Part shown: positions 5,451 to 25,841 of the stretch, in pieces
Layout of the letters: the number at the start of each line of letters is the position of its first letter
Numbering within the stretch: position 1 is the stretch's first letter
Source: Acidobacteriota bacterium
Lineage (GTDB): Bacteria > Acidobacteriota > Thermoanaerobaculia > Thermoanaerobaculales > Thermoanaerobaculaceae
Assembly (NCBI GenBank): GCA_003133645.1
Contig: PKYI01000101.1
Coordinates: forward strand, 48,430 to 112,429
DNA length: 64,000 nucleotides
Direction: 5' to 3'
The notes under the pieces: generated by a model
What the model was told of the DNA's origin: nothing
The model's database searches: none
The model's input: only the letters and a program-made list of their open reading frames with translations
Translations under genes and position numbers: made by a program

Positions 5451-7118
5451 TCACGCCTCCCCGATGAGCCCGCGCAGGGTCGCCGCGAGCTCGGCGTACG
5501 CCTCGTCGGCCTCGCCAAGGGAGACCTCGACGAACCGGACCTCGTCGCGCGCCCGCAGCTGGCCGATGCGGTGCAGGTCGGCGGCGATCACGCAGGCGAT
5601 CTGCGGGTAGCCGCCGGTCGTCTGGTGCTCGACGAACGAGACGATCGGCCGGCCGTCCCCCGGTACCTGGAGCGCCCCGAGCGACACGCCCTCGGTGACC
5701 ATCGCCCCCGGCCGGTCGGCCGCGAGCGGCGCCCCGTCGAGACGCAGCCCCATCCGGCTGCTGCTCTCGCTGACGACGTACGGCGACGCGAACAGCGCCG
5801 TCCTCGCCCGCGACGTGAAGCGCTCCCACTGCGGCCCGCGCGTGGCGCGCAACGTGTCGCGCCGCAGCAGGCGCGCCGCCACTTCGGGCGGGAAGCGCCG
5901 GTCGACCGGCCCCGCGTTCCCGGCCACGCCGACGGCCAGGACGTCCCCCGCCCGCAGGGGACGCCCCTCGATCCCCCCGATGCCGGACGTCAGGTGGGTC
6001 GAGGCGCTCCCCAGGACGGGCGGCGCCGCGACTCCGCCGCGCACGCACACGGTGCAGCGCGCCCCCGACCTCGTCGCGCGGCACGCCAAGGTCTGGCCGG
6101 GCCTCACCTCCAGGGCGGTCCAGAGAGGGACGCGGGCGTCGTCGATCGCAGGCTCGAAGTCGGAACCGGTCACCGCGACGACGCAGGCGTCCGCGAACGC
6201 CAGAGCGGCGCCGGTCAGCGTCATCTCGATCGCGGCCGCTCCCTTGGGGTTGCTGACCAGCCAGTTGCCTATCCGCAGCGAGACGGGGTCCGCGGCGCCC
6301 GACGCCGAAACCCCGATATGGGCGTACCCAGGTCGTCCGAGGTCCTGCACCGTGCTCTGGAAACCCGGCGTGACGACGCGGATGGCGCCGACTCTGGCCG
6401 CCTGAGCCGGCGGCGCGAGGGGGGCCGAGTCCACCGCGAGAGCGCTCCCCTCCTCCGTCGCGACGAACCTGACCCGATCGCCCGCGGCCAGCAGCGCCGG
6501 CGGCGTCCGCCCCGGGTCGAACAGCGCGAGCGGCGTGCGCCCGATGAGCTGCCAACCCCCCGGCGAGGCGAGCGGATAGACGCCGGTCTGACTCCCACCG
6601 ATCGCGACGCTCCCCGCCGGGACGCGCGTGCGCGGCGTCGGCCGCCGCGCCGCGGCGATGCGCGGCGGCAGCCCGCCCAGGTACGGGAAGCCGGGCGAGA
6701 AGCCGAGGAAGTAGACGAGGTACTCGGCGCGGCTGTGCTCGCGCACCATCTCAGTCGGGGTGAGGCCGCACGCCGCCGCCACCTCCGCGAGGTCGGGGCC
6801 CCACTCGCCGCCGTAGCGCACCGGGACCTCGACCAGTGCAGGCTTGGGGAGCGCAACCACCCGCGCCTCCTCCACCCGGCGAACAACCTCGTCCCCGATC
6901 CGGCGGCGCTCCGATCCCGGCGGCTCGAGCGTCAGCAAAAGCGACGCGTACGCGGGGTGGAGGTTCGCCACGCCTGGGATCGGCGCCCGCAGCAGCAGAT
7001 GCAGGGCCGCCCGAACCCGGCGGTGCGCATCGAGAGAGATTTCGTCCGCGAAGGTGACCAGGATCGAGTGATCACTGGCAGGCCGGACGGCGGCGCGAGT
7101 CGGCAAGACGGTCTCCAT
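5451..7118 (-). CDS. pxpB-pxpC: 5-oxoprolinase subunits B and C fused in one polypeptide
   Basis: N-terminal KipI-like (LGFSPGFPYLGGLP) and C-terminal KipA-like biotin-dependent carboxylase domain (VVTPGFQSTVQDLGRPGYAHIGV). Confidence 0.88.
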   Translation of the reverse strand: METVLPTRAAVRPASDHSILVTFADEISLDAHRRVRAALHLLLRAPIPGVANLHPAYASLLLTLEPPGSERRRIGDEVVRRVEEARVVALPKPALVEVPVRYGGEWGPDLAEVAAACGLTPTEMVREHSRAEYLVYFLGFSPGFPYLGGLPPRIAAARRPTPRTRVPAGSVAIGGSQTGVYPLASPGGWQLIGRTPLALFDPGRTPPALLAAGDRVRFVATEEGSALAVDSAPLAPPAQAARVGAIRVVTPGFQSTVQDLGRPGYAHIGVSASGAADPVSLRIGNWLVSNPKGAAAIEMTLTGAALAFADACVVAVTGSDFEPAIDDARVPLWTALEVRPGQTLACRATRSGARCTVCVRGGVAAPPVLGSASTHLTSGIGGIEGRPLRAGDVLAVGVAGNAGPVDRRFPPEVAARLLRRDTLRATRGPQWERFTSRARTALFASPYVVSESSSRMGLRLDGAPLAADRPGAMVTEGVSLGALQVPGDGRPIVSFVEHQTTGGYPQIACVIAADLHRIGQLRARDEVRFVEVSLGEADEAYAELAATLRGLIGEA

Positions 7119-7235
7119 GGCGGTTCGAGTGGCTCCGCCAGGGTAGGCACGTCATCCGGCGCCGTCAACGCGACGGCCGTTGGGTGCTTGAGTTGCGGCG
7201 ACGCCGCCGTCAGGCCCCGGGAGCGGTGCCGGCGC

Positions 7236-8864
7236 TCACTCCTCGCCGAGGAACGGGTAGGCGAAGTGCGCCGGGGGCACGAACGTCTCCTTGATCGCCC
7301 GCGGGCTCGTCCAGCGGATCAGGTTCCACAGCGACCCGGCCTTGTCGTTGGTGCCAGAAGCCCGCGCCCCGCCGAACGGCTGCTGGCCGACCACCGCCCC
7401 GGTGGGCTTGTCGTTGACGTAGAAGTTCCCCGCCGCGTCCCGCAGCCGCTCGGTCATCGCCAGGATCGCCTGACGGTCGGCCGCGAACACCGCGCCGGTG
7501 AGCCCGTACGGCGAGCCGGTGTCGCACAGCTCGAGCGCCTTCTCGAGCTCGGCGTCGGGGTAGACGAAGATCGTCAGCACGGGCCCGAAGATCTCTTCCT
7601 GCATGAGCTTGAACGTCGGGTTGCCGGTCAGCACCACGGTGGGCTGGATGAAGTAGCCGGTGCGGTCGTCGCAGCCGCCGCCGGCGATGATCTCGGCTTC
7701 CGGCGAGCCCTTGGCGAAATCGATGTAGGCCTTGATGTTGTCGTAGGCGGGCTTGTCGATCACGGCGCCCATGAAGTTGGTGAAATCCTCGGGGTCGCCG
7801 ACCTTGACCTCGGCGAGTTGGGCCAATAGGCCGGCCTTGACCTTCGGCCACAGCGACGCGGGGACATAGGCGCGCGACGCCGCCGAGCACTTCTGCCCCT
7901 GAAACTCGAACGCGCCCCGCACCAGCGCGGTCACCAGCGAGTCGACGTCCGCCGAGGCGTGCGCGAACACGAAGTCCTTGCCCCCGGTCTCCCCGACGAT
8001 CCTCGGGTACGAGCGGTAGCTCGCGATGGTGTTGCCGATCGTCTTCCACATCTGCTGGAACACCGCCGTGGAGCCGGTGAAGTGGATTCCAGCCAACTCC
8101 GGGCTGGCGAGGACCGGGTTGCCCACCTCCCCGCCCGACCCGACCACCATGTTGACGACGCCCGCCGGCATCCCCGCCGCGATCAGCACCTTCATGACGT
8201 GGTACGCGGAGTAGACCGCGCTCGACGCCGGCTTCCACAGCACGGTGTTCCCCATCAGCGCCGGCGAGGTCGGGAGGTTGCCGGCGATCGAGGTGAAGTT
8301 GAACGGCGTCACCGCGAAGACGAACCCCTCGAGTGGGCGGTACTCGACCCGGTTCCACACCCCGGCGGAGGACGCCGGCTGCTCCTCGTAGATGCGCTGC
8401 GCGAAGAACGGGTTGAATCGCCAGAAGTCGATCAGCTCGCACGCCGAGTCGATCTCGGCCTGGAACACGGTCTTCGACTGCCCGAGCATGGTGGCGGCGT
8501 TGACCTCGTCGCGGAACGGCCCCGCGAGCATCTCGGCGGCGCGAAGCAGGACCGCGGCGCGCTCGGCGAACGGCACCCGCGACCACGTCGCGTGGGCGGC
8601 GCGCGCCGCCGCGATCGCCCGCTCGACCTCGGCCTCGCCCGCCTTGTGGTAGGTCGCGAGCACGTGGCCGTGGTCGTGCGGGACGACGCACGTCCCGAGC
8701 TTCCCGGTGCGCACCTCCTCGCCGCCGATAACCAGCGGGATCTCGATCTGCCGCCCGCGCATCGCAGCGAGCTTCGCCTTCAGCGATTTCTTCTCGGCAG
8801 AGCCCGGCCCGTAGCTCCGGATCGGCTCGTTGATCGGTTGAGGAACTCGGAAAATGCCGCTCAT
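7236..8864 (-). CDS. pruA: L-glutamate gamma-semialdehyde (1-pyrroline-5-carboxylate) dehydrogenase
   Basis: ALDH family; GETGGKDFVFAHASAD, RGAFEFQGQKCSAASRAY; SD GGGAGG upstream. Confidence 0.9.
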   Translation of the reverse strand: MSGIFRVPQPINEPIRSYGPGSAEKKSLKAKLAAMRGRQIEIPLVIGGEEVRTGKLGTCVVPHDHGHVLATYHKAGEAEVERAIAAARAAHATWSRVPFAERAAVLLRAAEMLAGPFRDEVNAATMLGQSKTVFQAEIDSACELIDFWRFNPFFAQRIYEEQPASSAGVWNRVEYRPLEGFVFAVTPFNFTSIAGNLPTSPALMGNTVLWKPASSAVYSAYHVMKVLIAAGMPAGVVNMVVGSGGEVGNPVLASPELAGIHFTGSTAVFQQMWKTIGNTIASYRSYPRIVGETGGKDFVFAHASADVDSLVTALVRGAFEFQGQKCSAASRAYVPASLWPKVKAGLLAQLAEVKVGDPEDFTNFMGAVIDKPAYDNIKAYIDFAKGSPEAEIIAGGGCDDRTGYFIQPTVVLTGNPTFKLMQEEIFGPVLTIFVYPDAELEKALELCDTGSPYGLTGAVFAADRQAILAMTERLRDAAGNFYVNDKPTGAVVGQQPFGGARASGTNDKAGSLWNLIRWTSPRAIKETFVPPAHFAYPFLGEE

Positions 8865-8958
8865 CGCTTGCCTCCCGCCCGGACAGCGCCGGGCCGTCTT
8901 GTGAAGCGCCGGCGCAAAGTCCGGCAGCCAGAGAATACGGGGCTGCCGTTCCCCGGTC

Positions 8959-8980
8959 AACCGCCGCCGTCCCGGCGGTT
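8959..8980. promoter_or_regulatory. Dyad in the divergent pruA / glycosyltransferase intergenic region
   Basis: AACCGCC-N8-GGCGGTT inverted repeat. Confidence 0.25.
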
Positions 8981-9014
8981 TGGGGCCGGTCGCGCTTGCA
9001 CGTATGATTCGTGC

Positions 9015-9995
9015 GTGTCCAAGACCGACGCAGCCCCCCGTCTCTCGATCGTGATCGTCTCCTGGCAGTCAGGGACGGAGTTGGTCGCGTGCGTGGAATC
9101 GTTGGCTGCCGCCCGCCGGCTCGCCGCGTTCGAGATTGAGCTCGTCATCGTCGACAACGCCAGCACGGACTTCCCGGCGAGCGGCGTTGACTCGGCCTGG
9201 CCTGGCGCTCGCCTCATCCGCAACGAGGCGAACCGCGGCTTCGGACCCGCCGCCAACCAGGGAGCGACGGCCGCCGGTGGGGATGTCGTCCTCTTCCTCA
9301 ACCCGGACACGCGCGCCGTCGACAGCCCTTTCCCGCCACTGCTTGACGCCTTCGAGGAGCATCCGGAGGCAGTGGCCGTCGTGCCTCGGCTGCTCGACGC
9401 GGATAGCCCAGGACACGCACCACAGTCCCATTTCCAGCTCCGGCGCCTGCCGAGCATGGGCCAAGCTACGCGCGAGCTTCTTCTGCTCGACCGCCTCTTC
9501 CCAAACAGTCGCGCCGCGCGGCGTGCCCATTATCTGGACCGTGACCTCGACCGCCCATTCGCCGTCGAGCAACCCGCGGCCGCGGCACTGACCGTGCGCC
9601 GCGACGTCTTCCGCCGCCTCGGCGGTTTCGACGAATCGTTTGTCCCGGCCTGGTTCGAGGACGTGGACCTCTGTGCCCGCCTCCTCGATGAGGGAACGAT
9701 CCTCTACTGGCCCACGAGCCGGTTTGACCACCTCGGGGGGGGGGCGGCCAGATCGCTGGGGTACGACTGGTTCCTGCCCGTCTACTATCGCAACGCCTGT
9801 CGCTACTGGCGGAAGCACCACGGTCGCACAGGGAGTGCCACGTACCGAACGCTCCTTTGCGTGGGGATGGTGCTGCGCCTTATCGCCTTGCCGCTTGCGC
9901 CAGCCTCGCCGGCCAGCGCCACGCGTGCCTTCGCGAGGGCGATCCTAGTAGCCCTCGGGATAGGGATCGGGCCGGCCCCCGCCCGCCCACGTTGA
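9015..9995 (+). CDS. Glycosyltransferase family 2 (rhamnosyltransferase-like) with C-terminal hydrophobic segment
   Basis: LSIVIVSWQSG..LVIVDNASTD..NRGFGPAANQG..LFLNPDTR..GGFDESFVPAWFEDVDLCARL. Confidence 0.88.
   Translation: MSKTDAAPRLSIVIVSWQSGTELVACVESLAAARRLAAFEIELVIVDNASTDFPASGVDSAWPGARLIRNEANRGFGPAANQGATAAGGDVVLFLNPDTRAVDSPFPPLLDAFEEHPEAVAVVPRLLDADSPGHAPQSHFQLRRLPSMGQATRELLLLDRLFPNSRAARRAHYLDRDLDRPFAVEQPAAAALTVRRDVFRRLGGFDESFVPAWFEDVDLCARLLDEGTILYWPTSRFDHLGGGAARSLGYDWFLPVYYRNACRYWRKHHGRTGSATYRTLLCVGMVLRLIALPLAPASPASATRAFARAILVALGIGIGPAPARPR
9735..9744 (+). repeat. G10 homopolymer inside the glycosyltransferase coding sequence
   Basis: Direct read: cctc GGGGGGGGGG cggcc; encodes Gly-Gly-Gly-Ala of the DHLGGGA motif. 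Confidence 0.9.
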
Positions 9996-10007
9996 ATTTC
10001 GGGTTGC

Positions 10008-12137
10008 TCAGCGAGTCTGGCTGGCCGTGTGGCGCCAGATGAACTCGAGCGCAAGCGCCACCGGCCGGAAACGCGAAGCGGCGGCGCACCACAACGGCGC
10101 TGGGTACGCGAACCCGATCCTCTCGAGCAGCGGCAGGTGTGGGGCGATCTGCTTCAACGCCTTCAGGTTATCGTGAAAGATCCCCATGCCAAAACGGCGT
10201 TGCTGGATCGCCTGGCGGAGAAACTCGCGAAAGAAACGACGTGAGATTCCAACGACCCTGTGGCGGTTCCAGCCCCCGTCCGAGTAGTTGTCCATCAACT
10301 TCTTCCAGTACTGGAGCCGGCTTCGGATCATCCTCGTCGTATTGCTGTAGTTGTCTTTGTAGATGCGCCACCAGAACGTCGATTCCGGCAGGTAGACGAC
10401 GGACGCGAATGGGAAAAGACGAAGGAACAGGTCGTCATCCTCGTAGCCGGAAAGAGCTTCGTCGAAGCCACCCACCTGTAGCACCAGGTCCCGCGTGACC
10501 GTCATCAGACCTGGCATCACGAAGACATCCTTGAAAAGAAGATCCTCCAGCAGCTCCTTCGGATGGGGCAGGCCGAACCGGTAGTTCCGATGCAAGCCGA
10601 CCAGGGCCCGCCGGCTCTTCTCGTCGATCGTGTCGGCATCCGTGTAGACAAGGTTCACGTTGCCGGTCAGGAGCGGGACCACGCGCTCCAACTTGTCCAA
10701 AAACCAAACATCATCCTGATCCAGGAAGCTCACCCAGGCGCCCCGGCTCAGCCGTACTCCGACGTTCCTCGAACTGGACTGCCCGCCGTTCTCCTTGCGG
10801 CAGTACCGGATCGGGATTCCCAGGTGCGTCTCGAGGAATCGCTGACACACCTCCGCAGTCTCGTCGGTGGACCCGTCGTCCACGATGACGATCTCGATCC
10901 TCCGGTATGTCTGTTGGTAGATACTCTCGAGCGCCTCGTTCAAGTAGTGGGGATCGCTCCGGCATGCGTTATAAACCGGAACGACCACCGAGACGAGAGG
11001 ACCGGTCAGAGCTTTTGTCGTCTCAACCCCCGCCAGGGTGGCGATGTGCGGGCGATAGTCGAGCTCGACGGAACGGCCCTCCGCTAGCGTCTCGAGCGCC
11101 CGCTTCAGTTTCTTCAGAACCGGCTTGAGCTGCCGTATCGGCTTCGTGAGCGCGATTGACCACGACTCGTCGATACGAAGCAGCTGGTCCTCGAGTGCGT
11201 GAACCCTGGCCTCGCTCTCGGCCAGTGTCTCCCTTCCCCGCGTGTCCTCCTGCCGGAGGCGGAGGGCGAGCGCGTTGCGCTCCTCTCCCACCTCGTTGAG
11301 CTCTTCGGGTGTCCATAACTCCCGCCACTTGGCATAGACTCGCAGCCGACCGGCTCGTTGTGCCTCGGCCGTGGCGCCCGCACCCACGCCCGAGCCGCCC
11401 CCGGTGCGGTAGCAGGCGCTGACCTGATCCAGGTGGATGAACGCGCCTCGGCGCGAGAGTCGCAGCCAGAAGTCCCAGTCCTCGTACGCGTCAAGCCGTT
11501 CGTCAAAGCGCTCGCCTTCGTCCACGACGGAACGACGGAAGAGAGCAGCGTGAAGTGGAATGAAGTTCCCACAACGCAGGGCGGCACCGCTATAGGGCTC
11601 GTTGATCGTGTCGCGCGAGCCCTTCTCCGGGTGCACCAGCCGAACCCCGGCGTACGCCACCGGCGCCTCGGGATGTTCCTCGAGAGCGGCCACCAGTGCC
11701 GCGACATGGTTAGGGAGAAACCAGTCGTCGTCGTCGAGAAAGCCGATGTAGCGGCCCCGAACCTCCGCGAGCCCGGCGTTGGCGGCCTCGCTTCTCGGCA
11801 GCCTCCTGGCCTGGCTGACGAGACGTGAGGAAAAGGGGCCGCACCGCTCGCTCAGGGACGGATGGCCGGAGCCAAGGGCATCCACCACAATGACCTCGAT
11901 CCTCGGAAAGGTTTGGACCCCTACCGATTCGATCGCCTCGCTCAGCTCGGGCCGCCCCAGGCTGCGGATAATGATCGAGACCAGGGGCGCTTCGGGGTTC
12001 ATCAGCACCTCAGCGACCTTGTTCTGGAGGGCGGGGTTCTGGCGATTCGGGGCGAGGGTTGTTTCCGACCGTGGCGGCTCACCTAAGGTCTGAGTGCCTT
12101 GTCGCGTTTCTCGAACTCCCTTGCTCTGGCTATCCAA
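10008..12137 (-). CDS. Double-domain family 2 glycosyltransferase
   Basis: Two GT-A modules: VSIIIRSLGRPELSEAIESV...GFLDDDDWF and VSVVVPVYNAC...IVIVDDGSTD...SFLDQDDVWFLDKLE; the listed start is TTG, first ATG is 45 codons further in. Confidence 0.85.
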   Translation of the reverse strand: MDSQSKGVRETRQGTQTLGEPPRSETTLAPNRQNPALQNKVAEVLMNPEAPLVSIIIRSLGRPELSEAIESVGVQTFPRIEVIVVDALGSGHPSLSERCGPFSSRLVSQARRLPRSEAANAGLAEVRGRYIGFLDDDDWFLPNHVAALVAALEEHPEAPVAYAGVRLVHPEKGSRDTINEPYSGAALRCGNFIPLHAALFRRSVVDEGERFDERLDAYEDWDFWLRLSRRGAFIHLDQVSACYRTGGGSGVGAGATAEAQRAGRLRVYAKWRELWTPEELNEVGEERNALALRLRQEDTRGRETLAESEARVHALEDQLLRIDESWSIALTKPIRQLKPVLKKLKRALETLAEGRSVELDYRPHIATLAGVETTKALTGPLVSVVVPVYNACRSDPHYLNEALESIYQQTYRRIEIVIVDDGSTDETAEVCQRFLETHLGIPIRYCRKENGGQSSSRNVGVRLSRGAWVSFLDQDDVWFLDKLERVVPLLTGNVNLVYTDADTIDEKSRRALVGLHRNYRFGLPHPKELLEDLLFKDVFVMPGLMTVTRDLVLQVGGFDEALSGYEDDDLFLRLFPFASVVYLPESTFWWRIYKDNYSNTTRMIRSRLQYWKKLMDNYSDGGWNRHRVVGISRRFFREFLRQAIQQRRFGMGIFHDNLKALKQIAPHLPLLERIGFAYPAPLWCAAASRFRPVALALEFIWRHTASQTR

Positions 12138-15958: not shown

Positions 15959-16540
15959 TTACTCGACCACGCCGTCGTGCGCGTTGGTGACGATGAACAT
16001 GACCGTCGTCGTGCCGAGGGAGAACTCCTGGTTGCTGCCGATGGTGGCCTGCTGGATGCGCACCGCCTCGACGTAGGTGCCGTTGGTGGAGCCGAGGTCG
16101 GTCACGACGGCCTCGTCGCCGTGGATCTCGAGCATCGCGTGGCGGCGGGAGACCTCGCTGTCCTGCAGCTGGATGTCGCTCTCGTTCCCGCGCCCGAGCA
16201 CGACGCGAGGCTGCCGGACGACGTGGATCTGGCCCGCGTTCGCACCCATGATCACGGCCAGCGAGTAGCGCTTGGACCGCGGCAGCGGGGCCAGGGACGG
16301 GAGATCCGCCGCGTCCGCAACGGCGGAACCCCCACTCTTGACGAGCTGCTTGGTGGTCTTCTCGGCGCCGCCGGTCGCAACGACCGTCACGGGCGGCACC
16401 ACGGCGTCACCGGGCGCCGGCCTCGTGATCTCGAACACCGTCTCGCACTGGGTGCACTTGAGCCGCTTCGAGGCCGCTTCGCCGAAGCGCGCCTCCTCGA
16501 ACTGGTACTTCGTCTTGCAGCTCGGGCAGCTCACGATCAT
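15959..16540 (-). CDS. MJ0042-type zinc-ribbon + FHA domain protein
   Basis: CPSCKTKYQFEE...LKCTQCETVFEI zinc ribbon; FHA motif VVLGRGNESDIQLQDSEVSRRHAMLEI...DLGSTNGTYV. Confidence 0.88.
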   Translation of the reverse strand: MIVSCPSCKTKYQFEEARFGEAASKRLKCTQCETVFEITRPAPGDAVVPPVTVVATGGAEKTTKQLVKSGGSAVADAADLPSLAPLPRSKRYSLAVIMGANAGQIHVVRQPRVVLGRGNESDIQLQDSEVSRRHAMLEIHGDEAVVTDLGSTNGTYVEAVRIQQATIGSNQEFSLGTTTVMFIVTNAHDGVVE

Positions 16541-16664
16541 GCCGCACCCCCGTCGCCCCGGGACCGAACGCGACCGAGCGCCGCCACGGGCCACACACGT
16601 TGCCCGTTGCGACCCCCGCCCCAACGACACGCCCAGTGTACGCCCGACGTGCTACGATTTCGAG

Positions 16665-18119
16665 GTGAGCGCAAACGCGAGGGGGAGGGGTCCGGGGAGC
16701 AGGTCCGCCGGCTCGCCGGGCGATTCCGGCGGCCAGGGCGCCGCACCCCAGATCCTCAGGATTCCGGCCAACGAGGCGGCCGAACGCGCCGTGCTCGGCG
16801 CCGTCCTCGCCGACGCGAACTGCTTCTACCGCGTCGTCGACACGATCAACGCCGACGACTTCTACAGCGACGCCAACCGGCTGGTGTTCGATGCGTTCCG
16901 CCAGCTCGCCGGGGACAACCGCGACATCGACCTCCTCACCGCTACCGACCAGCTCGAGCGCAGCGGCACGCTGGCATCCGCCGGCGGGGTCGCCTATGTC
17001 GCCAGCCTCGCCGAAGGCCTTCCGGACCCGGCCAATGTCGAGCACTACGCGGCGATCCTGCGCGAGCGCTCAGTCAAGCGCAACCTCCTGCGGATCTCGC
17101 AGGAGCTGATGGCGGCGTGCGCACGCGACGAGGGCGAGGCGATGGACGCCCTCGACGCCGCGGAGACGCAGATCCTGTCGATCGCCGAGCGCGCGATGCG
17201 GGGCGGCCTCCAACCGGTGGGCAAACTCGCCCACGAGGAGGTGGCGCACATTGAGCGCGTCTCGAAGTCGAACGCCCCCTACACCGGGATCGAGACCGGT
17301 TATTACCGCCTCGACGAGCTGACGTCCGGCCTGCAGAAGCAGGACCTGGTGATCCTCGCGGCGCGGCCGGGCGTTGGCAAGACCGCTCTCGCCCTCAATA
17401 TCGCGTCGCACTGCGCCGTCAAGGGCGGCCTCAAGGTGGCCGTGTTCTCCCTCGAGATGTCGGCCGTGGCCCTCGTCAGGCGCCTGCTCGCGGCCGAGGC
17501 GCGAATCAACGTCAAGCGCCTCACCCGCGGCCTGCTCTCCAAGAGCGTGGACAGCCGGCAGGAAGCCTCGGACTGGCAGCGGCTCGCCGAGGCGGCCGAC
17601 CGTCTCGCCGAAGCTCCGCTCTGGATCGACGACACCGCCGGCATCTCGATCCTCGAGCTCCGGGGGAAGTGCCGCCGGATGCTGATGGAGCACGGCCTCG
17701 ATCTGGTCGTCGTCGACTATCTGCAGCTCATGTCTTCCGGCATGCGGGCCGAGAACCGCACCCAGGAGGTGTCGGCGATCTCTCGCGGCCTCAAGGCGGT
17801 GGCCAAGCAGCTCAACGTGCCGCTGCTCGTGCTCTCGCAGCTCTCGCGCAACCCGGAGCGGCGCGGCGACCAGCGCCCGCAGCTCTCCGACCTGCGCGAG
17901 TCCGGCTCGATCGAGCAGGATGCGGACGTCGTGATGTTCATCAACCGCAAGAACCGGGCCCTGCAGGCCGGGGATGCCGGCGAGGACGAGGAGGACTGGC
18001 GCCTCGCGGAGATCATCATCGCCAAGCAGCGCAACGGTCCGACGGACCTGTTCAAGCTCGTGTTCCTGGAAGAGTTCACCCGCTTCGAAAACCCGGAGTT
18101 CTCCAGCTATGAACGGTGA
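16665..18119 (+). CDS. dnaB: Replicative DNA helicase
   Basis: NEAAERAVLGAVLAD; LVILAARPGVGKTALALNIA; VDYLQLMSS; SDLRESGSIEQDADVVMFINR. Confidence 0.95.
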   Translation: MSANARGRGPGSRSAGSPGDSGGQGAAPQILRIPANEAAERAVLGAVLADANCFYRVVDTINADDFYSDANRLVFDAFRQLAGDNRDIDLLTATDQLERSGTLASAGGVAYVASLAEGLPDPANVEHYAAILRERSVKRNLLRISQELMAACARDEGEAMDALDAAETQILSIAERAMRGGLQPVGKLAHEEVAHIERVSKSNAPYTGIETGYYRLDELTSGLQKQDLVILAARPGVGKTALALNIASHCAVKGGLKVAVFSLEMSAVALVRRLLAAEARINVKRLTRGLLSKSVDSRQEASDWQRLAEAADRLAEAPLWIDDTAGISILELRGKCRRMLMEHGLDLVVVDYLQLMSSGMRAENRTQEVSAISRGLKAVAKQLNVPLLVLSQLSRNPERRGDQRPQLSDLRESGSIEQDADVVMFINRKNRALQAGDAGEDEEDWRLAEIIIAKQRNGPTDLFKLVFLEEFTRFENPEFSSYER

Positions 18120-18909
18120 GCAGGCGCGCGCGTCCGGCTTCAACGGGTTCCTCGAAGCGATCGGCCGGAAGAGCCTGGAGCTTTTCGAGGAGGTCGGCCG
18201 GTTCTTCTACATCCTCCACGCCACGATTTACTGGACGTTTCGCCGCCCGTTCGACGCCCGGGAGTGGTTGCGTCAGATGGTCCGAGTCGGGGTCGATTCC
18301 CTCCCGGTCGTGGGCCTGACCTCCATGTTCACCGGGATGGTGATGGCGTTGCAGACGTACCGCGGTTTCGAGCGTTTCCACGCCGAGGGCTTCGTGGCGT
18401 CGGTGGTCTCCCTGTCGCTGACGCGCGAGCTGGCGCCGGTGCTCGCCTCGCTGATGATCGCCGGGCGCGTCGGCTCGTCGCTCGCGGCGGAGCTGGGCAC
18501 AATGCGCGTGACCGAGCAGATCGACGCCCTGTACGCGATGGCCACCGAGCCGATCCAGTACTTGGTGGTGCCCAGGGTGGGGGCCACGACGGTGATGCTG
18601 CCGCCGCTCGTCGCGATCGCGAACGGGCTCGGCATCTTCGGCGGCTACGCCATCTCGGTCGCGCTCATGGGCGCGAACCCCGTTACCTACTGGGAGAAGA
18701 CGTTCCAGTTCCTGGACATGAACGACGTCTCGTCCGGGCTGATCAAGGCCGCCGTCTTCGGCCTCATCCTGTCGGTGACCGGGTGCAGCAAAGGGTTCTT
18801 CACGACCGGCGGCGCCGAAGGCGTTGGCCGGGCAACGACCAGCGCGGTCGTGATGGGCTCGGTCGTGATCCTGGTGTCGGACTTCTTCCTCACGAAGATC
18901 CTCTTCTGA
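18109..18909 (+). CDS. mlaE: MlaE-type ABC transporter permease
   Basis: MCE-associated permease family; LTRELAPVLASLMIAGRVGSSLAAELGTMRVTEQIDAL; overlaps the dnaB 3' end by 11 nt. Confidence 0.92.
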   Translation: MNGEQARASGFNGFLEAIGRKSLELFEEVGRFFYILHATIYWTFRRPFDAREWLRQMVRVGVDSLPVVGLTSMFTGMVMALQTYRGFERFHAEGFVASVVSLSLTRELAPVLASLMIAGRVGSSLAAELGTMRVTEQIDALYAMATEPIQYLVVPRVGATTVMLPPLVAIANGLGIFGGYAISVALMGANPVTYWEKTFQFLDMNDVSSGLIKAAVFGLILSVTGCSKGFFTTGGAEGVGRATTSAVVMGSVVILVSDFFLTKILF

Positions 18910-18925
18910 GCGCAGGGGGGCGGCG

Positions 18926-19726
18926 ATGGCGGCTGGTGAACCGGGGGATCGCATGGTGGCAACCGCGGCGCAGGCGCGCCCGAAGATCGCCGTCATCGAC
19001 CTCTGGAAGAGCTTTGCGGGCCACGAGGTGCTGCGCGGCATCAACCTCGAGGTCCCGGCCGGCGAGTCGCTCGTGATCGTGGGCGGCTCGGGCGCGGGCA
19101 AGAGCGTGCTCCTCAAACACCTTATCGGGCTCATCCCGCCGGAGCGCGGGCACGTCATCATCGACGGCGACGACCTCACCAACTGCGAGCCGGCCCATTG
19201 CCTCGAGATCCGCCGCAAGTTCGGCATGTCGTTCCAGGAAGGGGCGCTGTTCGATTCGATGACCGTATTCGAGAACATCGCGTTCCCGCTGCGGCGCCAC
19301 ACGCGCTCGAGCGAGGGGGAGATCGCGGCGCGGGTGCGCGAGTGCCTGGCGCTCGTCCACCTCGACAAAATCGAGAACAAGGCCACGAGCGAACTTTCCG
19401 GTGGCATGCGGCGCCGGGTCGGGTTCGCGCGCGCCATCGCGCTGCAGCCCGAAATCCTGCTCTTCGACGAGCCTGACACCGGCCTCGACCCGATCACGTC
19501 GGCGGTCATCGACGCCGTGATCGTGGAGATGCGCGAGCAGCTCGACGTCACCATGGTCACGATCACCCACAACATGCAGTCGGCGTTCCGCATCGCCGAC
19601 CGCATCGCCATGCTCCGGAACGGGCAGATTACGGCCGTCGCCCAGCCGGACGTCTTTCGCTCCCTGGCGGACCCTTACATCCAGAAGTTCCTCGCGGGCG
19701 AGCCGCTGGAGGAGGAGGTGGCATGA
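18926..19726 (+). CDS. mlaF: MlaF-type ABC transporter ATP-binding protein
   Basis: Walker A GGSGAGKSVLLKH; signature LSGGMRRRVGFARAIALQPEILLFDEPDTGLDPI. Confidence 0.92.
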   Translation: MAAGEPGDRMVATAAQARPKIAVIDLWKSFAGHEVLRGINLEVPAGESLVIVGGSGAGKSVLLKHLIGLIPPERGHVIIDGDDLTNCEPAHCLEIRRKFGMSFQEGALFDSMTVFENIAFPLRRHTRSSEGEIAARVRECLALVHLDKIENKATSELSGGMRRRVGFARAIALQPEILLFDEPDTGLDPITSAVIDAVIVEMREQLDVTMVTITHNMQSAFRIADRIAMLRNGQITAVAQPDVFRSLADPYIQKFLAGEPLEEEVA

Positions 19727-21228
19727 GTCACACCGCACGCGTCGGAGTTTTCATGCTGGCCGCCCTGGTCATCCTGGGCGTGTTCATCGTCAAGATCGAG
19801 GAGATTCCGATCGGCACCAGGGGCGGCCGCTTCCGGGTGAAGGCCGTCTTCCCCTCGGTCGCCGGTCTCGACGAGAAGAGCGCCGTCCGCATCGCCGGCG
19901 TCCGCGTCGGGATCGTCGAGAGCATCAAGCTCCAGGGCGATCGCGCGCTGGCGACACTGGCGCTCGATCGCGACGTCGTCCTGCACGAAGGGGCGCGCGC
20001 CGAGGTGACCAGCCTCGGCATGCTCGGCGACAAGTACGTCGAACTCTCCCCCGGCTCGCCTTCCGGCCCGGTGCTTCCCGCCGGCGCAACGCTCAACGGC
20101 ACGAGCCCGATCGGTTTCGACGAGGCCCTCAAGAGCTTCAACTCGGCATTCTCGAACATCGACGCCGTCGCCGGTTCGCTGCGCGGCTCGCTCGCCAGCC
20201 CGGAGGGTGAGAAGCGGCTCAACGAGATCATGGAGAACATCCGCCAGCTCACGGCCTCGGTCCGCGACCTCGTGCAGGCGAACCGCACCAACGTCGATGC
20301 CACGATGGCCAACGTCCGGGACTTCTCCGAGACGCTGAAGACCGAACTGCCCCGCCTGGCCGACAAGCTCGCCGCATTCGCGGACCACCTCGACGCCCTG
20401 GTGGCCGAGAACCGCGGCAACGTCGACGCCTCGATCGCCAACGTCAAGCAGGTCACGGCCGAGATGCGGGTCACGGTGGACAACATCAACAAGATCACCG
20501 GGAAGATCGCCTCCGGGCAGGGCTCGGTCGGCAAGCTGATCAACGACGACGCCACGGTCGACAACCTCAACTCGACGCTGACCTCGGCCCGCGGCGCCGC
20601 CGACTCGCTGAAGAACACGCTCGGGCGGGCCGAGCGCTGGCACCTCGACATGAACATGCGCGCCGAGGCGCTGCCGGGCCTGACCAAGAACCGTGCTCTC
20701 GGCGTGCTGTACAACTCCCGCAGCGCGTTCGGGTTCGACCTGCACACCACGGCCGAGCGTTTCTACCGCCTCGAGCTCGTGGACTCGCCCGTCGGGCGCG
20801 TGAACAACTACACGCAGACGATCACGACGATCTCCCCGGACGGCCACTCGGAGACCTCGATCCAGGAAACCCAGCGGATCTCCGACAACAACACCTTCAA
20901 CGCCCAGGTCGGGTTCGAGTACAAAGGCTACACCTTCCGGGCTGGACTGTTCGAGTCGCGCGGCGGGGTCGGCGTAGATCGGGCGCTCCTCGACCACCGG
21001 CTGAACCTGACGCTCGAGGCGTACGACTTCAGCCGCGACGTCAAGCCACCGCACATCCGCTTCGAGACGCGCTACTTCCTCACCCGCAACCTGTTCGCCT
21101 ACGCGGGCCTGGACGACCCGGTGTGGGCGCAGCAGCGCTCGGTGCTGTTCGGCGGCGGCGTCACCTGGCGCGACGAGGACATCAAGTACCTGCTCGGTAC
21201 GGTTTCGTCCATGGGATCAGGCAAATAG
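19723..21228 (+). CDS. mlaD: MCE/MlaD family protein with long C-terminal extension
   Basis: GRFRVKAVFPSVAGLDEKSAVRIAGVRVGIVESI MCE fold; helical repeats NRTNVDATMANV / NRGNVDASIANV; about 170-aa aromatic-rich beta-like C-terminus. Confidence 0.88.
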   Translation: MSHTARVGVFMLAALVILGVFIVKIEEIPIGTRGGRFRVKAVFPSVAGLDEKSAVRIAGVRVGIVESIKLQGDRALATLALDRDVVLHEGARAEVTSLGMLGDKYVELSPGSPSGPVLPAGATLNGTSPIGFDEALKSFNSAFSNIDAVAGSLRGSLASPEGEKRLNEIMENIRQLTASVRDLVQANRTNVDATMANVRDFSETLKTELPRLADKLAAFADHLDALVAENRGNVDASIANVKQVTAEMRVTVDNINKITGKIASGQGSVGKLINDDATVDNLNSTLTSARGAADSLKNTLGRAERWHLDMNMRAEALPGLTKNRALGVLYNSRSAFGFDLHTTAERFYRLELVDSPVGRVNNYTQTITTISPDGHSETSIQETQRISDNNTFNAQVGFEYKGYTFRAGLFESRGGVGVDRALLDHRLNLTLEAYDFSRDVKPPHIRFETRYFLTRNLFAYAGLDDPVWAQQRSVLFGGGVTWRDEDIKYLLGTVSSMGSGK

Positions 21229-21230
21229 CC

Positions 21231-22586
21231 GTGGGACGCGAGCCGGCCGTCTTCGAGTGCACCGCGTGCGGTCAGCGCTCGCAGAAGTGGCTGGGCCGGT
21301 GCCCGGGGTGCGGCGGCTGGAACACCTTCGAGCAGGTCCCCGGGGAACTGCGCCATGAGGTGTGGGCCCGCGGCGCGGCGGTGGAGCCGGTCCCGCTCTC
21401 GGCCGCCGAGCTCTCCGACGCGCCCCGGGTGGCCACCGGCATCGCCGGCCTCGACCGCGTCCTCGGCGGCGGGCTGGTCCCCGGCAGCGTCGTCCTCGTC
21501 GCCGGCGAGCCGGGCGTCGGCAAGTCCACCCTGCTCCTGCAAGCGGCGACGCGGCGGCCGGAGCTGGGCCGCGTCCTCTACGTGAGCGCCGAGGAATCGG
21601 CGCAGCAGGTCGCGCTCCGCGCCCACCGCCTCGGGTGCGTGCAGGACACCGTCCTCCTCCTCGCCGAGCCGTCGGTCGAGGCGGCCGTCGCCGCCGCGCG
21701 CCGGCTGCGGCCGGCGCTCGTCATCGTGGACTCGGTGCAGACGATGTACTCGGAACGCGTGCCGGCGGTTTCGGGGAGCGTGACTCAGGTCCGCGAGGTC
21801 GCCGGCCAACTCCTCGAACTCGCCAAGCGCGACGGGCCTCCCGTGATCCTCGTCGGCCACGTGACCAAGGAGGGAATGGTCGCCGGCCCGAAGGCGCTCG
21901 AACACCTGGTCGATGCGGTGCTCGAGTTCTCCGGCAGTCCCAACCACCCGCACCGGATCCTGCGCTCGACGAAGAACCGGTTCGGGTCGGCGCTCGAACT
22001 CGCGTTGTTCGCGATGAGCGACGCCGGCCTCGAGGAGATCGTCAGCCCCTCCGCCGTCCTGCTCGCGGACCGGCGGCCTGGAGCGCCCGGCTCGGCCGTG
22101 GCGGTCGTCCTCGAGGGCTCGACCCCCCTCCTGGTCGAAGTCCAGGCGCTCGTCTCGCGTTCCGGACTCACCAACCCGCGGCGCGTGGCGCAGGGCGTGG
22201 ACCCCGGACGTCTTGCGCTCCTGCTCGCCGTGCTCGAGAAGCGGGCCGGCGGCCGGTTCGGCGACCGTGACGTCTTCGTCAACCTCGTTGGTGGCGTGAG
22301 CGTCGAGGAGCCGGCGCTCGACGTCGCGGTCGCGGCCGCGGTGATCTCCTCCGCGGCGGACTGTCCCCTCCCCGACGATCTGGCGTTCTTCGGCGAGGTC
22401 GGCCTGCTCGGCGAGATCCGCGCGGTCAGCCGCCCCGCCGAACGGCTGCGGGAGGCGCGCACCCTCGGGTTCACCCGCTGTGCCGTTCCCGCGTCGGTGC
22501 AATCCGCCGGCGACACCGAGATTTCACTCCTCCCCCTCGGCGACGTTCGCGAGCTCGGCCGCCTGCTGCAAGCGCTAGAATCGTAA
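21231..22586 (+). CDS. radA: DNA repair protein RadA
   Basis: FECTACGQRSQKWLGRCPGCGGWNTFEQV; GEPGVGKSTLLLQ; KNRFGS motif; C-terminal Lon-like domain. Confidence 0.95.
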   Translation: MGREPAVFECTACGQRSQKWLGRCPGCGGWNTFEQVPGELRHEVWARGAAVEPVPLSAAELSDAPRVATGIAGLDRVLGGGLVPGSVVLVAGEPGVGKSTLLLQAATRRPELGRVLYVSAEESAQQVALRAHRLGCVQDTVLLLAEPSVEAAVAAARRLRPALVIVDSVQTMYSERVPAVSGSVTQVREVAGQLLELAKRDGPPVILVGHVTKEGMVAGPKALEHLVDAVLEFSGSPNHPHRILRSTKNRFGSALELALFAMSDAGLEEIVSPSAVLLADRRPGAPGSAVAVVLEGSTPLLVEVQALVSRSGLTNPRRVAQGVDPGRLALLLAVLEKRAGGRFGDRDVFVNLVGGVSVEEPALDVAVAAAVISSAADCPLPDDLAFFGEVGLLGEIRAVSRPAERLREARTLGFTRCAVPASVQSAGDTEISLLPLGDVRELGRLLQALES

Positions 22587-22599
22587 CAGGAACGTTGTC

Positions 22600-24678
22600 G
22601 TGACCGAGGGAGACCGTGCCGCCGCAGTCGTGCGCCTGTTCAGCGATGTGGAAGCGTTGCGACGGGCGTTGCGCCTGTACCCGCCGTCACACCCCTCGCT
22701 GCAGCCCGCCCGGGCCAGGTTGCGCGAGCGGGCGCTCACCCTTGCGGAGCCCGGCGAGGTCGCGACCGCCTCGTTCGGGCCGGATCGCCTGTTCTGGGCC
22801 GGCGAAGAAGTCGCCATGCCGGCGACGGTTCCTGCCGCGCGCCTGGTCCGCACGCTCTTCCATCTCGGCCTCGCGGCGATTCACCTCTCCTTTCCGGAGG
22901 CCGCCGACGGCGTCGTCGAGCTCGCCGACCGCCTCGCCGCGCTCAACGATCCCCCGGGAGAGGCGGACCGCGTCAGGCTGCTCGGCGGGGCCGCGCCTGC
23001 CGGCGTCGAGTTCGTACCGATCGACCTCTCGGGCGTGCAGCTCCTCGATTCCGACCACGTGCGCGACGAGAGGGGTTCGCGTCCGGTCTGGGCGGAACTC
23101 GCCCGCCGCCTGGCTCGTGATGGCGCGTTCGCCGCCGTCGGCAAGATCCATCAGGGCGAGTTGAAGCCGGGCACGGTCGCGGACCTGCTGACGGCGGCCT
23201 CCGACCCCGAGACGCTGTTCGACCACCTCTTCATCCAGCTTGCCGAAATCGCCCGCGCCCCCGCCCTGGACCGACGGCCCGCGGCGCTCGCCGAGGTGCG
23301 GGAGTTCTTCGCTGAGCTAATCAGCCTGCTCGACCACGACCGCCGGAGGCTTGCGGTCGTGACCGGCCTCCGCCACCTGCCGCTTGCCAACCCCGACGAC
23401 CCCTGGGTGGCGGGTGAGCTCCTGCTCGACGCCATCGAGCGCATGCTGCTGGAGAACCTCCCGGTGCCGGAGGTGGTGCAAAGGGTCCTCCATCGCATGG
23501 CGGCGCCTCTCTCCGATCAACCAGCGGGCGTACCGGGGGATCTGGCCGGCCGCGCGCGGCATCTCCTCGCCCGACTCCCGGTCAGCTCCCCGGACACCCG
23601 GGACGAGGAGGAGGTGCGGCCGGGCGTGGACTGGAGAGGCTCCGCGCACGCGCAGGAACTCGTCGCGGAACTCGGCGACGAGCGGCTGCGCCTGCACCTC
23701 ATCCGCCTGCTCCAGGAAACGATCATGCTCTGGCCCGACTCCCCGATCGCGGAAAGCTCCGCAATCAGGCTTGCCGAGGAGTTCGCCACCGCCCTTGACG
23801 TCGGCGACCTCGAGACTGCCGTCCGCCTCGCCCCGCTCCTGGGGGCCATCCGCAGCGCCAAGGCTCATCAGGCGATCAGGGAGAACGGTGTGCCGGCCGC
23901 GGTGCGGGCGTTCAAGACACTCGAGAAGAGCCACCACCCGGACCTCACGGCGCTCCTCATCGCCCTCGGCGAGCCGGCGCTACCGGCGGTCCTGGAGGCG
24001 CTCGGGGAGGAAGACAGCCTCGCCGTCAGGAAGCGCCTCCTGGAGGTCGTCGCCCGTCAGGGACGCCGCGCGCTCCCATACGTCCAGCCGATGCTCGACG
24101 ATCCGCGCTGGTACGTCGTTCGCAACGCGGTGTTCCTTCTCCGCCGGCTCGGCGGGCCGGATGTGTCGGCCCTGCTCAAGTCCCGGATTGAGGGTGCGCC
24201 GCCAAAGGTGGTGCGCGAGATCCTCAAGGCGCTGGTCGAGCTCCAGGATCCGGATTGGTTCAAACTGCTCCTGCAGACCATCGACTCGGCCGACGACGAG
24301 AGACGGCGGGTGGGCATCGACGTCGCCTCCCGGATCCGCCACCCCGACGTGGTCGGCGCCCTCGTGCGCCGCCTGCGGGAGAACATAGGCAACCGCCTAC
24401 GCGAGCCGGCGAGCCTTGATCTCATCCGTGCCCTTGGCCGGCTGCGCGACCCGGCGGCGCTCGATATCCTGCGCGAGATCCTGACCTTGAAGCAGTGGCG
24501 CTACCCGTTCCCGCTGACCGAGCCCCGACGCGAGGCGGCGGCGTCGATCGCGCGCCTCGAGGGTGCGGAGGCCAGCCGGCTTGCCGCCGCCCTCGCGCGC
24601 GGCCGCGACGGCGACGTCGCCGAGGCGGCGCGCGGGGCGCTGCGTGCCCAGCCGGAGGAGAAGGAGGACGAGGAGTGA
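22600..24678 (+). CDS. HEAT-repeat domain protein with N-terminal module shared with the next gene
   Basis: HEAT-like helical repeats (LLEVVARQGRRALPYVQPMLDDPRWYVVRNAVFLLRRLGG...); GTG start. Confidence 0.75.
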   Translation: MTEGDRAAAVVRLFSDVEALRRALRLYPPSHPSLQPARARLRERALTLAEPGEVATASFGPDRLFWAGEEVAMPATVPAARLVRTLFHLGLAAIHLSFPEAADGVVELADRLAALNDPPGEADRVRLLGGAAPAGVEFVPIDLSGVQLLDSDHVRDERGSRPVWAELARRLARDGAFAAVGKIHQGELKPGTVADLLTAASDPETLFDHLFIQLAEIARAPALDRRPAALAEVREFFAELISLLDHDRRRLAVVTGLRHLPLANPDDPWVAGELLLDAIERMLLENLPVPEVVQRVLHRMAAPLSDQPAGVPGDLAGRARHLLARLPVSSPDTRDEEEVRPGVDWRGSAHAQELVAELGDERLRLHLIRLLQETIMLWPDSPIAESSAIRLAEEFATALDVGDLETAVRLAPLLGAIRSAKAHQAIRENGVPAAVRAFKTLEKSHHPDLTALLIALGEPALPAVLEALGEEDSLAVRKRLLEVVARQGRRALPYVQPMLDDPRWYVVRNAVFLLRRLGGPDVSALLKSRIEGAPPKVVREILKALVELQDPDWFKLLLQTIDSADDERRRVGIDVASRIRHPDVVGALVRRLRENIGNRLREPASLDLIRALGRLRDPAALDILREILTLKQWRYPFPLTEPRREAAASIARLEGAEASRLAAALARGRDGDVAEAARGALRAQPEEKEDEE

Positions 24679-25841
24679 GCGCGCGTACCGAGTGGGAGTT
24701 GCAGGTCGACCGCGTCCTCGGCGATCTCGCCGGCGGCGCCACGGCTGTCGGCCTGTACGGCGCCACGCACCCCCGGGCAGCCGAGGCCGTACAGCGGATC
24801 TCCCTGCAGCTCGCCAAGCTCCTTGCCACCGAGCCTGAACTCGCATTCGTCCTCCTCGGCGAGGAGTTGTTCGTGCAGGGGCGTCCGTTCACCCGCGTCT
24901 CCCGGCACTCCGGATCGCTCATCCGCCGGTTCCGCCGCCGGGAGATCGAGCACGCCACGATCCGCGCCGGCGTGTCCCAGGAGGAGATTCACGGCTTTCT
25001 GGAGGACCTGGCGCGGACGGACGAGGCGGCCGTGCAGTCCCGGCCCCACATTCAGGTCGGGCGGGTCGAGCTCTCCGACCGCGAGCTGGGGGGCCCGGAC
25101 GCCTCGGCCGGCGGCGCGCAGGGGCGCAAGCTGGCGACGGTCCGCGACCGCGTCGCTCTCATCCATGACGATTTCGCCCAGTTGGTGGCCGGGAACGGCG
25201 TGGCCGTCGGCGACCTCGGCCGCGTGGCTCGCGCCATCCTGGACGGGCTCGAGGCCGACCCCGACCCGCTTCGTCAGTTCGCCCCCTGGGAAGGCGAGGA
25301 GCGCTGGCCAGCCGTCCACGCTCACAACGTCGCCGTCCTGAGCATGGGCCTCGCGCGCCTTGCCGGGGCGGCCGCCAGCCCTTGCGCCGACCTCGGCTTC
25401 GCGGCTCTTGTGCATGATGTCGGCAAGCTCTTCCTCCCGCCGGAGGTCTTGAGCCGGGAGCTCGCCCTCGCCGGCGACGAACTCGAGTTCATGCTCGACC
25501 ACTCGAAGATCGGCCTTGAAGTCTTGCTTGAGAACGCCCAGGTCCCGCCTCTCGCTCTTGTCGTGACGTTCGAGCACCACCTCAACTACAACGGCACCGG
25601 AACGCCGCGGCTCTCCCGGCCGCGACGGCCCCACCCGGCCGCCAGGGTCGTCACCGTCGCCGACGCGTTCGTGTGCCTGTTCACCGCGCGGGGGGGCAGG
25701 GGCCTCCTCACGCGCGAGGGGACGATCGCCTGGATCACAGAACACGCCGGCACGGCGCTCGACCCCGATTGGGCCGGCGGCCTGGAACAGGTGCTGGAGC
25801 ATCCCGCTGACGGCCGGCCCGTGGCTCAGCCGCCGGGGTAG
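24675..25841 (+). CDS. HD-domain phosphohydrolase, HD-GYP-like variant
   Basis: VHDVGKLFLPPEVL; FEHHLNYNGTGTPRLSRP...VVTVADAFVCLF; GTG start overlaps the upstream stop (GTGA). Confidence 0.8.
   Translation: MSARTEWELQVDRVLGDLAGGATAVGLYGATHPRAAEAVQRISLQLAKLLATEPELAFVLLGEELFVQGRPFTRVSRHSGSLIRRFRRREIEHATIRAGVSQEEIHGFLEDLARTDEAAVQSRPHIQVGRVELSDRELGGPDASAGGAQGRKLATVRDRVALIHDDFAQLVAGNGVAVGDLGRVARAILDGLEADPDPLRQFAPWEGEERWPAVHAHNVAVLSMGLARLAGAAASPCADLGFAALVHDVGKLFLPPEVLSRELALAGDELEFMLDHSKIGLEVLLENAQVPPLALVVTFEHHLNYNGTGTPRLSRPRRPHPAARVVTVADAFVCLFTARGGRGLLTREGTIAWITEHAGTALDPDWAGGLEQVLEHPADGRPVAQPPG

Follow-up and report, generated by a model that had tools for sequence, protein, structure and literature searches.

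We found that two overlapping genes in the window (the whole stretch of 64,000 nucleotides that was analysed) encode a HEAT-repeat protein and an HD-GYP protein which both start with a homologous module of about 125 residues. The order of the two genes, HEAT then HD, is conserved, and no fewer than four bacterial phyla have the pair. We consider it probable that the two genes form a conserved cyclic-dinucleotide signalling unit, in which the HEAT-type (T) and HD-type (H) copies of the module would pair and the HEAT solenoid would control the HD-GYP phosphodiesterase. HD-GYP enzymes, HEAT scaffolds and protein complexes of HD-GYP enzymes are already known. Neither the module nor the unit of HEAT and HD-GYP proteins, nor its wide occurrence, turned up in the databases and the open literature that we searched.

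The overlapping genes and the module their products share

The two genes had been placed by the initial annotation with a GTGA overlap between them, and both the coordinates and the overlap were correct when checked against the sequence (Table 1). The Shine-Dalgarno-like AAGGAGG of the HD gene lies seven bases upstream of its GTG. A longer open reading frame (ORF) beginning at 24495 is unlikely to give the true start of the HD gene, since alignment with related HD proteins sets in only near 24675. Ahead of the pair and in the same orientation (16272-22586, +) the window has dnaB, mlaE, an ABC ATPase gene, mlaD and a radA-like gene, a housekeeping context, and the genes downstream of the pair are convergent. 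The closest named relatives of the window HD protein come from Acidobacteria and Thermoanaerobaculaceae/Thermoanaerobaculum MAGs.

Table 1. Positions of the two genes in the window and of the features found within them
Feature	Position	Strand	Evidence
HEAT protein gene (T), 692 aa	22600..24678	+	Pfam HEAT_2, E 4e-13; AlphaFold; PDB fold matches
T-type module copy, residues 1-140	22600..23019	+	HMM/hhalign homology to HD-protein N-terminus; AlphaFold element order
Alpha-solenoid/HEAT repeats, residues 162-683 (HEAT_2 best at 462-545)	23083..24648	+	Pfam, AlphaFold, fold matches
AAGGAGG, Shine-Dalgarno-like site of HD gene, within HEAT gene end	24661..24667	+	Sequence inspection
GTGA, HD start GTG overlapping HEAT stop TGA	24675..24678	+	Sequence inspection
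HD-GYP protein gene (H), 388 aa	24675..25841	+	Pfam HD_5, E 1e-11; PDB relative PmGH (4mcw), E 4e-10
H-type module copy, residues 1-129	24675..25061	+	HMM/hhalign; AlphaFold
HD-GYP catalytic domain, residues 219-365 by Pfam	25329..25769	+	HDxGK, H, EHH, G(T)P and D motifs

The initial annotation had aligned the two N-termini by eye and suggested the duplication of a common module. The alignment by eye is not significant alone, since a direct BLASTP comparison of the window HEAT and HD proteins gave no N-terminal match. Homologues of the HEAT and of the HD protein, gathered from related genomes and genome contigs, were aligned apart and separate N-terminal profiles were built from them. We found that an HMM made from HEAT N-termini only finds HD N-termini with E-values down to 7e-19 (6.9e-15 for the window HD protein). 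Reciprocally, the HD N-terminal HMM finds HEAT N-termini with E-values down to 6.5e-19, the window HEAT copy being found weakly at 0.035, and the profile searches returned no match beyond module-bearing ORFs. When the two profiles were compared by hhalign the match was 99.2% (E 1.9e-19, 110 columns) while four control comparisons of the module with the HEAT or HD parts gave at most 1.3%. The residues picked out by eye proved to be the conserved ones of the family alignments, namely LYP..HP, the L(F)..G strand, the G(I/V)..l.f strand and the E..fL..L helix.

AlphaFold models of the HD module and of the HEAT protein place the same alpha/beta order of helices and strands in both module copies; the comparison is one of element order and not of superposed coordinates. 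The HD module (pLDDT 90.3, pTM 0.82) was predicted from an alignment that included both T and H modules, with elements H6-28 H33-52 E55-61 E64-67 H79-88 E93-97 H102-113 E126-129 (H H E E H E H E). The HEAT protein (pLDDT 81, pTM 0.48) was predicted from HEAT sequences alone, and the elements of its module are H3-26 H32-48 E54-59 E64-66 E69-71 H78-88 E91-97 H101-113 H121-129 E136-140. Both alignments, drawn from the window and a subset of the loci, were shallow (29 and 14 rows). The profile homology together with the shared predicted element order supports the proposed duplication, and different folds at the two N-termini, which would have counted against it, were not predicted.

The module has no convincing match in Pfam, NCBIfam, PDB sequences or PDB folds. 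Pfam found HEAT_2 and HD_5 in the window pair and nothing at either N-terminus, and 49 diverse module copies scanned singly against Pfam and NCBIfam gave only isolated, single-member weak matches to unrelated families. A module profile searched against PDB sequences gave partial matches only, the best of them to a designed protein; Octarellin V.1 (E 3.5e-7, about 40 residues), a designed alpha/beta protein, was rejected as an artefact. Foldseek comparison of the module model with the PDB and with viral models returned nothing at E ≤ 0.001, and the matches to a GAF fold were weak (E > 1, probability about 0.1) and were not accepted.

The HD-GYP domain and the HEAT solenoid

The window HD protein scores above the Pfam cut-off for HD_5, and the nearest solved relatives of its HD domain are PmGH (E 4e-10) and V-cGAP3 (E 6e-9). 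Its first His (VHAHN) lies just ahead of the Pfam domain boundary. All seven metal positions (H, H, D, H, H, H, D) are intact in the window protein and in 65 of the 71 copies in total; among the other six, Asp is changed to Glu in three, the first His is lost in one, and three positions are lost in two. The Tyr of the GYP motif (HHExxDGxGYP) is retained in 64/71 copies. In the window the motif reads EHHLNYNGTGTP, with Thr instead (GTP), and it is also degenerate in the nearest relative of the window HD protein. The protein is an HD-GYP domain enzyme with conserved metal ligands, and its candidate substrates would be c-di-GMP or 3'3'-cGAMP. The initial annotation had called it an HD phosphohydrolase and missed both its HD-GYP character and the fusions of the module-HEAT unit to GGDEF, PilZ and cNMP-binding domains described below.

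The metal ligands of PmGH include the Glu E185 (PMC4159591). An equivalent of this trinuclear PmGH-type ligand was not found in the window protein, which has Trp in the corresponding column, four residues before the first His; the column holds Tyr in 44 and Trp in 14 of the 71 copies, together 58/71. With Tyr or Trp at this place in most copies, the metal site could be unlike that of PmGH.

The two copies that have lost three positions (L083:12610-13767 and L103:8178-9332, +) belong to one genus and carry AD or VD for HD, Arg for the first His and Val for Asp. These HD partners are candidate pseudoenzymes, and the gene pair is still kept. Because the catalytic residues are lost in these two genomes, hydrolysis may not always be the point of the pair.

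The window HEAT protein matches HEAT_2 with 49.8 bits against a Pfam cut-off of 27.7. Its AlphaFold model has about 29 helices after residue 160, arranged as an all-helical solenoid, and its nearest PDB folds are HEAT/armadillo solenoids. On this model the T protein is predicted to be a HEAT-repeat solenoid.

Distribution, gene pairs and fusions of the module

We found the module in 109/297 genomes of Acidobacteriota, the phylum of the window, in 84/198 genomes of a deltaproteobacterial phylum (that of L016), in 103/148 of a Nitrospirae-type phylum (that of L010) and in 33/40 of an Eisenbacteria-type phylum (that of L011, Candidatus Eisenbacteria). These phylum names follow the titles of the sequence records. 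The number of module matches per genome is often even. In the Eisenbacteria-type sample, 29 of the 33 genomes together contain 44 pairs of copies on the same strand with a spacing of 1631-1889 bp, which accounts for 88 of the 102 copies. Among the other 14, the "singles", two or more (L185, L187) do have a HEAT partner, with its module below threshold or off the contig.

A HEAT partner lies directly upstream and on the same strand in 66 of the 71 module-HD genes, a count of the HD genes seen in loci fetched for carrying either partner and not of a random sample. At that place the HEAT ORF is cut, split or overlapping in four of the remaining five, which contig ends or the calling of ORFs account for, and it is lacking in L140, an apparent orphan. 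The pair co-occurs strongly in distant phyla, as expected of the two-protein system that had been proposed. HEAT and HD distances are strongly correlated (Mantel r 0.91, n = 66 pairs, 0/999 permutations), a correlation which includes shared species history.

While the HEAT-HD adjacency is kept, the flanking genes differ between genomes (mla, radA-like, TatC, amidohydrolases, ABC transporter, kinases). The pair itself is therefore the unit, and since the flanking genes are not common to different genomes, inference of function from neighbours was dropped. Single neighbours, conserved in no other locus, are a GGDEF-EAL protein (L090:5378-7414, -) and a PAS-rich hybrid histidine kinase (L101:3958-7731, +). 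The pair is duplicated in tandem (HEAT-HD-HEAT-HD) at five loci (L122, L123, L124, L131 and L133), where the duplicates have diverged to distances of about 0.53-0.6 for HD and about 0.75 for HEAT. A plasmid search with the HD protein matched 164 records, none of them across more than 80% of the query. A description of the HEAT-HD-GYP pair was not found in open-access full-text literature, judged by titles, abstracts and term counts.

HEAT-only module copies with no HD partner are common in some groups, including a whole Acidobacteriota family (f35), in which L125, L126 and L141 have a module-HEAT protein and no module-HD partner nearby. Since such copies exist, the module must also act without an HD partner.

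The HMM search for the module and its domain partners, proposed in the initial annotation, found HEAT, HD-GYP, GGDEF plus AAA, and cNMP-binding plus PilZ partners. Four proteins of about 1430-1470 aa carry GGDEF, AAA_16 and HEAT repeats by Pfam, with two tandem modules between them by profile (L152:2190-6533 and 6788-11083, -; L127:4862-9139, -; L166:3077-7480, +). Proteins at L172-L181, of which L176 is cut by the contig end, seemingly belong to the same family by length, position and module/HEAT matches, Pfam having been run on the first four only; at times two paralogues of the family stand in a row. A 1690-aa protein (L161:4984-10053, +) consists of a module, HEAT repeats, and cNMP-binding and PilZ domains. 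Because module-HEAT units are fused to GGDEF, PilZ and cNMP-binding domains, cyclic-dinucleotide signalling is the likely context of the module. The genome of the window itself has GGDEF genes, with nine matches of which two belong to a single ORF, and also six above-cut-off matches to PilZ.

A score from the T and H profiles sorts known modules correctly for 51/55 T and 36/37 H copies, a few of these test copies being re-fetched training loci. By this score the first copy is T-like in 14 and the second H-like in all 16 tandem-module proteins. As these proteins are one family, their T-then-H order could go back to one event. This order mirrors that of the genes, which suggests that T-type and H-type modules work together.

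A proposed signalling unit and its relation to known systems

In the reading that we favour, an old duplication of one module would have been followed by divergence into the T type and the H type. The T-type module would pair with the H-type module, thereby tying the HEAT solenoid to the HD-GYP protein. Binding of a target or signal by the solenoid would set the activity or location of the HD-GYP protein, whose catalytic domain would remove cyclic dinucleotide nearby. HEAT-only copies may homodimerise or pair with other module proteins. Physical pairing is suggested by the adjacency, the overlap, the correlated divergence and the tandem copies, and regulation of the HD-GYP protein by the HEAT protein is what the domain content points to.

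The module could instead be a small-ligand or stress sensor working separately in each protein, the two proteins then belonging to one pathway with no direct contact and the HEAT protein binding some other target. HEAT-only genomes speak for this account, and the module does occupy the N-terminal place of many HD-GYP sensor domains, for example the GAF domain of PmGH (PMC4159591). Against this stand the near-obligate adjacency, the stop/start overlap in the window and the correlated divergence, and the presence of T-type and H-type copies in tandem in one chain suggests that they act as a pair. We regard separate sensors as unlikely, though deserving of serious thought. A chiefly structural or effector role for the HD-GYP protein, which would then bind nucleotide or protein and not act as a phosphodiesterase, is rather improbable. 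Such a role would suit L083 and L103, which keep the pair without the metal ligands, and the degenerate GYP of the window and its nearest relative, and the HD-GYP protein RpfG can act by protein contact (PMC3749722). Against it, all seven metal positions are present in 65/71 copies, and alanine mutations of GYP largely spare the activity of PmGH (PMC4159591).

Two further accounts carry much less weight. An anti-phage defence system or other mobile two-gene cassette might be expected to look like a two-gene unit with variable flanks, and PADLOC gave one weak match, to OloA (E 0.017), in the HEAT part. PADLOC gave none for the HD protein, and the pair was not accepted as a known anti-phage system. 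The window pair stands beside dnaB, mla and radA-like genes, and the presence of the module in most sampled genomes of two phyla fits core inheritance; this account is very improbable. That the N-termini, as parts of GC-rich helical proteins, resemble each other by chance or convergence would agree with the empty BLASTP comparison, but profile E-values of 1e-15 to 1e-19, the lack of matches outside module-bearing ORFs and the matching predicted structures leave this hardly credible.

In the signalling unit that we favour, a domain missing from the databases that we searched would connect an HD-GYP enzyme with a partner protein across large parts of at least four phyla. A definable domain with a defined partner offers a handle on local second-messenger control in poorly cultured bacteria. 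The usual regulators of cyclic-dinucleotide enzymes are known sensor domains such as PAS, GAF and receiver domains. We put forward more tentatively, as a proposal that may well turn out otherwise, that the module is a new pairing domain of two complementary types, T and H, and a general link through which HEAT solenoids are joined to the HD-GYP and GGDEF enzymes of cyclic-dinucleotide signalling and to its PilZ and cNMP-binding receptors. The link would act in trans where the unit is made of two genes, and in cis within the GGDEF proteins. If this were true, second-messenger signalling would have a wiring principle, so far undescribed, that spans several phyla.

Among known systems, PmGH (PDB 4mcw) and V-cGAP3 (PDB 5z7c) have the same catalytic domain, with metal positions H, HDxGK, H, HH and D; the GYP loop is present in most copies here, though the window reads GTP. 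PmGH has an N-terminal GAF domain whereas the HD protein has the module in its place, and the column of E185 is Glu in PmGH, Tyr or Trp in most copies here and Tyr in V-cGAP3 according to a printed alignment. The HD-GYP part also matches the NosR-family response-regulator c-di-GMP phosphodiesterases (NF053512, E 4e-14), but with 52 bits against a cut-off of 400, and the window HD protein has no receiver domain. In the RpfG-GGDEF-PilZ complex of Xanthomonas campestris an HD-GYP protein likewise stands in complex with c-di-GMP-type proteins (PMC3749722); its contacts are made by the HD-GYP and GGDEF domains themselves, without a HEAT protein or a shared module. The fold search with the HEAT protein also returned the PP2A A subunit (e.g. 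8uwb), a HEAT solenoid holding a phosphatase. Such a match is common to HEAT/armadillo folds in general and the PP2A enzyme is unrelated to HD-GYP; PP2A serves as an analogy only.
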